Source: Candidatus Saccharimonadota bacterium (GTDB lineage Bacteria > Patescibacteriota > Saccharimonadia > Saccharimonadales > Saccharimonadaceae). Taken from it: DNA of 64,000 nucleotides. Below are positions 3,747 to 41,635 of the stretch, piece after piece. Made by a program: the position numbers and the translations under genes. The stretch lies in contig JAPLYU010000001.1 in assembly GCA_026395405.1 (NCBI GenBank), positions 316,696 through 380,695 on the forward strand. Direction: 5' to 3'. Position 1 is the first letter of the stretch; the number at the start of each line of letters is the position of its first letter. Under the pieces are notes generated by a model. That model did no database searches. It had not been told where the DNA came from and saw only the letters and a list, made by a program, of their open reading frames with translations.

Positions 3747-3777
3747 ATGTGGTTTTTTTCAAGCATCTGGTTGTCAT

Positions 3778-3832
3778 TTCGCTTATTTGAATGCGTATTC
3801 AAACTGATGAGTCCAAAAGGATGAAAAGCGAA
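3778..3832 (+). ncRNA. Type III hammerhead ribozyme HHR1
   Basis: Stem III TTCGCTT/AAGCGAA; H17 = A3785; stem I TTTGAAT-GCGT-ATTCAAA; core CTGATGA; stem II GTCC-AAAA-GGAT; GAAA. Predicted cleavage 3785/3786. Confidence 0.93.
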
Positions 3833-5201: not shown

Positions 5202-5256
5202 TTCGCTTTTTTGAATGCGTATTCAAACTGATGAGTCCAAAAGGACGAAAAGCGAA
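5202..5256 (+). ncRNA. Type III hammerhead ribozyme HHR2
   Basis: TTCGCTT / AAGCGAA stem III; H17 = T5209; stem I TTTGAAT-GCGT-ATTCAAA; CTGATGA; GTCC-AAAA-GGAC; GAAA. Confidence 0.93.
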
Positions 5257-8046: not shown

Positions 8047-8080
8047 GCCTCTCTGTATTTGTAAATGTCTGCTTGTTATA

Positions 8081-8133
8081 TCGCTTAAATGAATGCGTAT
8101 TCATTCTGACGAGTCCCAAAGGACGAAAAGCGA
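8081..8133 (+). ncRNA. Type III hammerhead ribozyme HHR3
   Basis: TCGCTT/AGCGA stem III; H17 = A8087; stem I AATGAAT-GCGT-ATTCATT (compensatory change); CTGACGA; GTCC-CAAA-GGAC; GAAA. Confidence 0.92.
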
Positions 8134-8139
8134 ATCAAT

Positions 8140-33138: not shown

Positions 33139-33324
33139 TTTGTAAAAAATACAAAATTATTGTATAAACAAGGTTAGAACCTTGAAAATTTATGGCAGGG
33201 TTGAGGGCGGCATTTTGGGTTTATTTTTAAACCTGAAATGCCGTTTTCAACTACAGGTCAGCCTACCGCAACAGATGCGGACTATTGGCAAACCTGGCGG
33301 CGACACAGGAAGGGGGCGAGCCTA

Positions 33325-34179
33325 ATGGGTAATCCCAAGGCCAGCTTCTACAACATCACCGTGGGTGATGAACTTGCGTTCTTGCGCAACTTAGTGAACG
33401 CAGGGCTCAGCGACAGCGATGTCAAAGACGTGCTGCGCAATCCGATGCTTGCAGAGATGATGGTCAACGTGTTGCATGACGGTAGCCGGTATAGGACACC
33501 GCCATGGTATGTCAGTCCCGCTGGCCAGATCAAGAAGGTCAAACGGTTCGTCAAGCTGAACAGGGCCTACTTCGGCAGTCGCAAGTGGTTCGATGAGTTC
33601 AATGTGATTCCACCGATTCCGAGTATGTTCGAGCCTCGCACGGCGACCGAGGTACTGATGCTTGTCGTCTACTTCCCGTTCAGCCAAGACTCAGGACACG
33701 ACAACCTGAAGTACACGTTCGACGCCTGGTGGAACTTCATCGGCGTGCCCAAGGGCTACGACAAAGCCACCGCATGGGATATCGCGAGGAGCGATTCGAA
33801 TATCCGACTTCACCAGGATGTAAGTCGCTACAGTGGTATCTACTGGGTAGCGTTCGATCCAGGCATAAGCTTTTCGGGCACCATTCTGAATCGATGGCAA
33901 GATGAGAACTGCATCATGGACGACCTGGCGGGACCCGAGGTGTTGATGGCGGCAGCATTGTTCCCAAGGCTGGTCTACAAATGGACCCAGAAGAATGCCT
34001 TGATTCCATGCATGCCGACCATACAGCTGCGGCGAGGCGATGTCTGGGATTGCACTCCGTGCATAGGTGTGGAGTGGCAGCCCATGGCTCCGACGTTGTT
34101 GAAACGAAACGTTCAAAACGCCAGGTACCCAGTAGAGAACCTGTCTCTACCCACAGTACGGCGCCTGCCGCGAATCTAA
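33325..34179 (+). CDS. Uncharacterised protein of cassette C6, paralog of the C7 protein
   Basis: DAWWNFIGVPKGYDKA ... GIYWVAFDP ... AGPEVLMAAALFP; start moved to ATG 33325 because ATG 33238 lies in the leader hairpin. Confidence 0.65.
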   Translation: MGNPKASFYNITVGDELAFLRNLVNAGLSDSDVKDVLRNPMLAEMMVNVLHDGSRYRTPPWYVSPAGQIKKVKRFVKLNRAYFGSRKWFDEFNVIPPIPSMFEPRTATEVLMLVVYFPFSQDSGHDNLKYTFDAWWNFIGVPKGYDKATAWDIARSDSNIRLHQDVSRYSGIYWVAFDPGISFSGTILNRWQDENCIMDDLAGPEVLMAAALFPRLVYKWTQKNALIPCMPTIQLRRGDVWDCTPCIGVEWQPMAPTLLKRNVQNARYPVENLSLPTVRRLPRI

Positions 34180-34243
34180 GGGTTCACAAGTGGTGCCCGG
34201 AGGGTCTTTGAGGATTCATCCTCGGTTCCTCCGGGCACCCAGC

Positions 34244-34289
34244 CCGACATAGTGTTTGACGTATAGTCCGCTGCGTCGGGCTTTTTAAT
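34244..34289 (+). terminator. Cassette C6 terminator with conserved interior
   Basis: CCCGACATAGTGTTTGACGTATAGTCCGCTGCGTCGGGCTTTTT. Confidence 0.65.
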
Positions 34290-34463
34290 TGATTGTAAAA
34301 TTTGTGTAATTATGGTATAAATAATACTAGAACCTTGAAAATCTAGAGTTTTTTGAGGGCGGCGTTTTGTGTTCGGAGGCGAACGCGAAACGCCGTTCTC
34401 AACTGAAGTGAAGACAGGCAACTATGAGTGAGTTGAAATGTCCCGACAGAAAAGGAGCGTTCG

Positions 34464-35105
34464 ATGACACAAAAGGTTATTCGCCCAGGTCTGCTCGGGA
34501 ACCCCGAGCAGCAAGTCGAGAAGTCCAGGGAGTTCTTGAATCAACACGGTGTCGTACGACCCATACCGGACATGCCGGAGTTCACGCCACAGACTATCAG
34601 CGAAGAGCTTCTGCTGGCCACCTACCTGTGCGACAACGATAACGGTGAGGCCTGGCTGCGGACTCTCAAGGCCTGGTGGCGATTCATCAACGCACCCAAG
34701 GGCTTCGTCAAGGCGGAGTGGGAAGGGTATACAGTCGAAGATGATGAGATCAGGCAGATTCCTGGCTACAAGCACCGCTGCGGCATCCGCTGGGTGGCCT
34801 ACGATCCGTTGGCCAACCTTGGCTTTTCGCCGAGGGCGTGTTGGGACAAGCCCGACAGGCATGGTCATCTGGCTGGGATCGAAGTTCTGATGGCTATGGG
34901 TTTGTCCCAGAAGTACGTCAAGAGCTGGGACGACCACACCCCATCGCCCAACATGGCCGGTCTGCAGGTCAGAGAAGAGCAGAATCCCGAAGCTGGGACT
35001 CCATTCGCCTGCAGGGCAGACGAACGCAAGGTGCTCAAGCTGAGCGTCGTCAAGGCCGCAATCACCAGCCCGAACTTCGCGAACCCCACCGTTCGCGAGC
35101 TCTAG
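34464..35105 (+). CDS. Uncharacterised protein of cassette C7, paralog of the C6 protein
   Basis: KAWWRFINAPKGFVKA ... GIRWVAYDP ... AGIEVLMAMGLSQ. Confidence 0.7.
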   Translation: MTQKVIRPGLLGNPEQQVEKSREFLNQHGVVRPIPDMPEFTPQTISEELLLATYLCDNDNGEAWLRTLKAWWRFINAPKGFVKAEWEGYTVEDDEIRQIPGYKHRCGIRWVAYDPLANLGFSPRACWDKPDRHGHLAGIEVLMAMGLSQKYVKSWDDHTPSPNMAGLQVREEQNPEAGTPFACRADERKVLKLSVVKAAITSPNFANPTVREL

Positions 35106-35166
35106 ATCTTCGGTCACAGGTGCCCGGAGGGGCTATGAGGGAAACCTCGCTCCTCCGGGCACTTCG

Positions 35167-35212
35167 CCCGACATTGCGTTTGACGTTCAGTCCGCTGTGT
35201 CGGGCTTTTTAA
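35167..35212 (+). terminator. Cassette C7 terminator with conserved interior
   Basis: CCCGACATTGCGTTTGACGTTCAGTCCGCTGTGTCGGGCTTTTT. Confidence 0.65.
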
Positions 35213-35382
35213 ATTGAAAAAAAATTATTATAAAATAAAAACTTCTTTTAGAAGGTCCGTCCTTCTAAAGAGAGATTATGTTTTATAACATGTCTTACGT
35301 TTGATTGACTATAAGGGTAAAACAGTGTAGAATTGGTCGAGAGTAAAAAACAATTTAAAGATAAGAAAAGGAAATTTTATTT

Positions 35383-41065: not shown

Positions 41066-41635
41066 TTAGCGCCTGTTTGGGAAGCGACGGCGGTCAAGGG
41101 TGGTTGGTTCGTCCTGGCCGGTTGTCTTGATGGTGATGATGGCGTGCCGACCCACCCAAGCCCCAAGGGGCTTCAACTTGCTTTGTAACGATTCGCCCGA
41201 ATTCGTGATAGCGTCTCTATTAAGGGACGGCGTCCACGTCAGGAATCGATTACCGCCGCGCATGTTCCGAAGGAAGTTGATGACTGGCGCCACGTTCTTG
41301 GGCGTGTCAAGCGACTTGGCGACGGTGCGATACGTAATCACCGCGTCTGCAAGTTTGATCGTCTTGCCGAATCGGGCCCAAAAATAGCGTTTGCGTCCGA
41401 ACAGCAACAGTGCCAACCTTGAGTCGAGTGACTTCAACTCCTTTCCCAGGGGTTTGGTTTTGGCGGCTCGCACTGCTTTAGCACGGTCTATCGCATCTTT
41501 TTCGACCTTTTCGGCCTTGCAGATTCTTTCTAATAGTTCTCTTCGGCGTTTAGCCAGAGACTCCAACTCTTCGATTTTCCCTGTCGGGACAATATCTTCT
41601 AAGGCTGTTGACTTGCGGATCACGGTACACCTCAT
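41066..41635 (-). CDS. Mu Gam-like (host-nuclease inhibitor / DNA-end binding) protein
   Basis: KIEELESLAKRRRELLERICKAEKVEKDAIDRAK...LLLFGRKRYFWARFGKTIKLADAVITYR layout of the Gam family. Confidence 0.55.
   Translation of the reverse strand: MRCTVIRKSTALEDIVPTGKIEELESLAKRRRELLERICKAEKVEKDAIDRAKAVRAAKTKPLGKELKSLDSRLALLLFGRKRYFWARFGKTIKLADAVITYRTVAKSLDTPKNVAPVINFLRNMRGGNRFLTWTPSLNRDAITNSGESLQSKLKPLGAWVGRHAIITIKTTGQDEPTTLDRRRFPNRR

Follow-up and report, generated by a model that had tools for sequence, protein, structure and literature searches.

RT-less tandem cassettes with a conserved structured leader as probable stranded DGR targets between rnc and rpsP of a Saccharimonadota genome

Introduction

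Two tandem GC-rich units, here named C6 and C7, lie between rnc and rpsP in the genome of a Candidatus Saccharimonadota bacterium, and the locus raises the question of what kind of element they represent and how they came to stand there. An original prediction described them as acquired cassettes encoding paralogs of unknown function. The units were analysed in the window, by which is meant the whole 64 kb stretch of DNA under study, and in related genomes. Our results make it very probable that C6 and C7 are stranded targets of diversity-generating retroelements (DGRs), of the C-type-lectin type, organized as autonomous units with structured leaders. Elements of this kind are already known; the variant that has no reverse transcriptase (RT), with tandem target cassettes that keep a conserved structured leader, is new.

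Results

Organization of the C6 and C7 units

The arrangement rnc-C6-C7-rpsP comprises two tandem transcription units, each with its own promoter and terminator (Table 1). The shared promoter, start and leader hairpin of the original prediction were all recovered. Both copies of the TTGTAA-N17-TATAAA promoter are present, and the +1 motif occurs exactly twice in the 64 kb with no mismatches, where 0.24 matches would be expected even with three mismatches allowed. Covariation in the leader hairpin reaches far beyond the pair, to 17 leaders; the GTGCCCGGAGG hairpin common to C6 and C7 was likewise confirmed, and both the leader and a GC hairpin at the 3' end recur throughout the family. The terminator interior, described as nearly invariant, matches twice in the window (expected 0.03) and is conserved within the C6/C7 pair, but it is not kept in the related unit of genome G018 or in others. 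This interior was also considered as a ribozyme and rejected, given the lack of Rfam support and conservation limited to C6/C7. The likely start of C6 is at 33325, after GGAAGGGGG, rather than at 33238.

Table 1. Features of the C6 and C7 units (window positions)
Feature	Position	Strand	Basis
C6 promoter TTGTAA-N17-TATAAA (boxes at 33140 and 33163)	33140..33168	+	sequence
C6 +1 motif TAGAACCTTGAAAATTTA; family consensus GAACCTTAAtaATTTAG	33175..33192	+	motif search, leader alignment
C6 leader hairpin UUGAGGGCGGC..GCCGUUUUCAA	33199..33252	+	covariation; covariance model R1 match
C6 gene, 284 aa	33325..34179	+	low-confidence N-terminal helices; predicted C-type-lectin-fold domain from ~residue 100
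C6 3' GC hairpin, immediately past stop codon	34190..34241	+	position of DGR target-site hairpin/cruciform; compared with PMC3240598
C6 terminator	34242..34287	+	sequence/folding
C7 promoter TTGTAA-N17-TATAAA (boxes at 34293 and 34316)	34293..34321	+	sequence
C7 +1 motif TAGAACCTTGAAAATCTA	34328..34345	+	motif search, leader alignment
C7 leader hairpin UUGAGGGCGGCGUUU..AAACGCCGUUCUCAA	34353..34402	+	covariation; R1 match
C7 Shine-Dalgarno region with CGAC, degenerate form of family CGGC motif (complementary to hairpin 3' arm)	34444..34457	+	
C7 gene, 213 aa, predicted C-type-lectin-fold protein	34464..35105	+	structure model
C7 variable-region equivalent, last 39 codons	34986..35102	+	NNC at 8/9 template Asn/Tyr positions
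C7 3' GC hairpin, inner GAGG-GAAA-CCTC, at target-site-hairpin position	35119..35162	+	
C7 terminator	35166..35211	+	sequence/folding

Among C6, C7 and the G018 unit, the promoter-leader and 3'UTR segments are 71–82% identical at aligned positions, and the similarity of the coding DNA, measured with the same aligner, is at the level of shuffled sequences. The protein-coding part has turned over within a steadier non-coding frame.

Locus and distribution

The rnc-rpsP junction could be read in 22 congeners: it is shorter than ~150 bp in 15, measures 187–249 bp in two and holds unrelated cargo in three. The cassette occupies it only in this genome (two units) and in G018 (one unit), so that the predicted insertion is confirmed as lineage-specific, and the two genes are not a single-copy presence across the clade. 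The junction is an insertion-tolerant site. Unrelated inserts encoding secreted- or pilin-looking proteins were observed there in G025, G005 and G021 (loci L016, L019 and L011).

A profile search across the family finds the protein in 22 of 394 genomes, spread over 15 of 61 genera, at many different loci. A wider profile also detects it in one further family of this class and, outside the class, in five genomes of the phylum; several of these members, from other CPR classes, have a similar leader hairpin and 3' hairpins. No relatives were found in phage collections, plasmid collections or viral contigs.

Protein family and predicted fold

The C6 and C7 proteins match at 36% by local alignment, and profile searches and alignments place them in one family with template-bearing relatives. 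Their description as paralogs holds; in place of unknown function, homology points to DGR target proteins of the C-type-lectin type. Searches of Pfam, NCBIfam, PHROGs and PADLOC with C6/C7 and relatives returned no significant match (PHROG 10655 at E 0.012 and HEC-06 at E 0.047 only), and a PDB sequence search with C6/C7 returned nothing.

AlphaFold2 models built from 6-sequence alignments reached pLDDT 80 and pTM 0.84 for C7, and pLDDT 77.6 and pTM 0.75 for C6. Foldseek comparison of the models with the PDB and with viral models gave no match at E≤0.001. Via re-alignment of the Foldseek candidates, almost all proved to be C-type-lectin folds for both models, including EgtB/SenA-type relatives. 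Mtd, the variable protein of the Bordetella phage BPP-1 DGR, is among the structural matches (Z 4.1 over 107–114 residues for C7, and 4.1 over 108 for C6). The Z-scores are middling, at 4–6 with a best of 6.4, and the fold match is therefore of moderate strength: C6 and C7 are predicted to fold as C-type lectins in which the variable region is C-terminal.

DGR features in relatives

In six relatives a second copy of the gene's final ~36–44 codons lies downstream; this is the template repeat. Across the six template/variable pairs, 76 of 79 mismatches fall at template adenines (Fisher p 4e-51), and in translation the Asn, Lys and Tyr residues of the template become other residues in the gene. 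An RT is found near family genes in nine relatives, eight of the RTs being complete, mostly with the DGR 'SQ' motif, and one a fragment. The RT lies 0.6–1.4 kb downstream of the gene in G199, G172, G075, G163, G035, G598 and G430, and 2.8 kb upstream in G644; the fragment (RYCDDF) is 0.2 kb downstream in G012. The motifs are LGNVTSQ, LGNISSQ, LGNLTSQ (the first and third of the form LGNxTSQ) and IGNLTSQ, which fit the DGR-type pattern [ILV]GxxxSQ, together with RYxDDF. G018 and G010 have SQ-motif RTs far from the cassette, and no template for the G018 cassette lies in the RT loci of that genome.

On this sequence evidence, the protein family of C6/C7 is a DGR target in relatives, and the combination of RT, template and adenine bias fits the established DGR mechanism (PMC3240598, PMC5006420, PMC8144416). 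A 110 amino acid target gene in G163 (L111, reverse strand, 1712–2041), which has no middle part and whose N-terminus runs straight into a template-like C-terminus, was also seen directly upstream of an intact DGR RT.

C6 and C7 as probable stranded targets

The genome carrying C6 and C7, which is 97% complete, gave no RVT_1 match at E≤1, control genomes being matched, and a template repeat was found in it for neither gene. For this reason C6/C7 are not filed as a complete DGR; at this completeness an RT might still lie in a gap. Since the window has neither RT nor template, their assignment to DGRs depends on homology, together with a modest codon footprint. C7 aligns gap-free to the template peptide of G199, and at the nine template Asn/Tyr sites its codons are GGG, TTC, TGC, CGC, AGC, GTC, ATC, AGC and AAC. 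Eight of these nine are NNC, compared with 83 of the gene's 213 codons (p 0.0026), which makes C7 look like the fixed outcome of earlier mutagenesis. The G018 unit has NNC at six of nine sites (p 0.04). The variable region of C6 no longer aligns cleanly with template codons, and C6 is more drifted than C7.

DGR target-site hairpins lie 4–34 bp past the variable region and are GC-rich, with a stem of 7–10 bp and a GRNA loop (PMC3240598). GC-rich inverted repeats begin ~13–15 nt past the last codon of C6 and C7, with longer stems and non-canonical loops by comparison with this description. The canonical 7–10 bp stem and 4-nt GRNA loop is missing from these 3' hairpins, and C7 has only the inner GAGG-GAAA-CCTC.

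C6 and C7 are autonomous units, each very probably encoding a C-type-lectin-fold variable protein of a Saccharibacteria/CPR DGR lineage. In relatives with a complete element, the DGR RT would copy the gene-side template-repeat RNA with errors at adenines, and the cDNA would overwrite the last ~40 codons and so re-tune the ligand-binding face of the lectin, the homing steps being taken from the established DGR mechanism. Because neither RT nor template was found in their own genome, the C6 and C7 proteins would be frozen variants that were most probably retained as unchanging ligand-binding proteins. Each gene is preceded by the conserved structured leader, beginning close to +1 and possibly controlling translation through a second pairing, and followed by a 3' GC hairpin that appears to occupy the position of the DGR target-site hairpin.

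A conserved structured leader

Seventeen leaders could be aligned over a hairpin of the form UGAGRRCGGC..GCCGUUCUCA, in which 95% of cells are paired and double changes occur at 10 of 20 pairs. None of 500 shuffles reached covariation as high, and the hairpin also exceeds all slid registers; covariation thus demonstrates a hairpin in the leader. The covariance model of the hairpin (R1) has matches in 24 of 394 genomes, including units of a second, distant protein branch, the MSTPA.. proteins of G012, G009, G076, G173, G054 and others. No Rfam model matched the leader above its gathering score; the weaker matches, to miRNA, snoRNA and similar models, are at chance level.

A CGGC motif lies ~20 nt 5' of the start codon, and in 29 of 30 leaders it complements bases 1–4 of the hairpin 3' arm. 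A permutation test of this 4-bp complementarity at the fixed site gives p 5e-4, for a motif placed by eye and with phylogeny ignored. Compensatory changes between motif and 3' arm are seen in L080 (GCTG/CAGC), L104 (GCCA/TGGC) and L082 (ACCG/TGGT), and in L080 and L082 the hairpin 5' arm has no matching change. An unconstrained test of pairing between the 3' arm and the Shine-Dalgarno region was not significant (combined p 0.08), and the alternative pairing fails in C7, where the motif reads CGAC. This second pairing suggests a possible switch for the control of translation.

The leader is the novel part of these units: it is family-wide, recurs in other CPR classes, has no counterpart in Rfam and has a putative regulatory role. 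We tentatively raise a further reading, which we regard as possible rather than probable: the leader may be a new class of cis-regulatory RNA dedicated to CPR DGR target proteins, in which the 3' arm switches between the 5' arm and the CGGC motif on the side of the ribosome-binding site, a signal gating expression of the hypervariable binding protein; leader and 3' hairpin might also serve as homology arms by which diversified target genes, once the mutator is lost, spread or are exchanged as free-standing cassettes.

Leader-like structures were also seen in other settings. In G145 (L085), a leader-like hairpin at 1501–1574 (R1 E 4e-4) precedes a gene region at 1600–2385, with a GC-rich pyrF (OMPdecase) and a phosphoribosyltransferase-like gene, metabolic genes with a similar style of leader. 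Contig C3 of G025 (L078, L090) has four leader copies, three of them within 3.4 kb, ahead of AT-rich genes, and some of the proteins encoded behind them are weakly or undetectably related to the family.

Composition and RNA folding

The coding sequences of C6/C7 have a GC content of 0.55–0.59 against ~0.42 in the neighbourhood, which had been taken to suggest acquisition. This interpretation is not borne out. Target genes in the intact DGRs of relatives have GC3 of 0.71–0.88 (0.71–0.87 over six such loci), whereas the RT of the same locus is host-like at 0.36–0.55, and AT-rich copies of the family occur in G013 and G025. As only the target gene, and not the RT beside it, is GC-rich in intact DGRs, the GC-richness is mainly intrinsic to the target gene, and the high GC of C6/C7 is no donor signature.

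The coding mRNA of the cassettes is more folded than synonymous-codon shuffles, with a mean z of -2.0 in 15 relatives versus -0.66 for window ORFs; over the full length, z is -2.5 for C6 (33325–34176) and -3.4 for C7 (34464–35102). The excess folding had prompted the idea of an RNA-replicon or viroid-like transcript, which was dropped after the DGR evidence.

Discussion

Three other explanations of the locus were weighed against stranded DGR targets. C6 and C7 could be live remote targets that are still diversifying, served in trans by a DGR in a contig gap, on a plasmid or in another element. Remote DGR targets are known (PMC8144416), the SQ-motif RTs of G018 and G010 lie far from the cassette, and the 3' hairpins and leaders of C6/C7 are still well preserved. 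We nevertheless consider live targets unlikely, given a 97% complete genome in which neither an RT (at E≤1) nor a template match was found, RT loci in G018 that hold no template for its cassette, and the lost alignment of the C6 variable region with template codons.

Integron-like or other site-specific mobile cassettes, with the hairpins as recombination sites unrelated to hypermutation, might account for tandem units with conserved flanking hairpins at several genomic sites, for the patchy spread and for the unrelated cargo that other genomes carry at this junction. However, every unit carries a promoter and a terminator of its own, in contrast to the promoterless ORF of an integron cassette; the leader hairpin retains G-U pairs and a constant position close to +1, as an RNA element would; and the 3' end of the gene is explained by the template repeat and RT of relatives. 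We judge such cassettes very improbable here. Ordinary horizontal acquisition, with an actinobacterial host or a phage as the donor of GC-rich genes, is the least probable of the three: the compositional contrast with the neighbourhood speaks for it, but relatives are absent from the phage, plasmid and viral collections searched, GC-richness is confined to the target gene in intact DGR loci, and AT-rich members exist.

The reading of C6/C7 as stranded DGR targets relates them to several known systems. A CPR-only clade of DGRs (clade 2), with targets that have no recognizable domains, was described by Roux et al. 2021, whose survey misses targets remote from the RT (PMC8144416). C6/C7 resemble these DGRs in being cellular, CPR-restricted and small with domain-less targets, and their relatives do so in having adenine-biased template/variable repeats and an RT, a likeness judged by these features. 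They differ in having no RT or template and in forming a tandem pair of targets, each with a promoter, leader and terminator of its own. Mtd has in common with them the predicted C-type-lectin fold, a C-terminal variable region and a hairpin just past the gene; unlike them it is a phage receptor-binding protein with a canonical 8-bp stem and GAAA loop, and its identity to the family is 7% over structure-aligned residues. AvpA, an archaeal DGR variable protein (PMC5006420), is similarly a C-type-lectin target from a symbiont-type organism that is not predictable from sequence, but it is archaeal and does not appear in the list of structural matches. The leader resembles structured translational leaders and riboswitches in having a covarying hairpin between promoter and ribosome-binding site and a possible mutually exclusive pairing, whereas the C6/C7 family leader has no Rfam match and no known ligand or protein partner.

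Because DGR catalogues are anchored on the RT, RT-less target cassettes such as C6/C7 are invisible to them and annotated as unknown. The leader covariance model finds such units directly and offers an RT-independent census of hypervariable binding proteins in Saccharibacteria, which are candidates for recognising bacterial hosts. The question is raised why targets that diverge so strongly retain a single structured leader and GC-rich mRNAs with unusual folding, of a composition unlike that of neighbouring RT genes.

Another GC-rich cassette family lies at 1.5–9 kb of the window, with units that end in type III hammerhead ribozymes (3778–3832, 5202–5256 and 8080–8134; Rfam RF00008, E 1.5e-4 to 5.6e-6, below gathering score). 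Stem I covaries between the copies (TTTGAAT/ATTCAAA versus AATGAAT/ATTCATT). C6/C7 have no hammerheads, and have the style of cassette in common with this group, with no common sequence found. In the hammerhead cassettes the 5' leader is, by eye, complementary to the 3' trailer (TTGACAATCAGATGC / GCATCTGGTTGTCA and similar; approximately 2699–2713 with 3767–3780, ~5350 with 5855, and ~7485 with 9000), so that the transcript ends could pair. Finally, an isolated GC-rich gene (54%) on the reverse strand at 41069–41635 has a weak match to Mu Gam (E 1.5e-5, below the curated cut-off).
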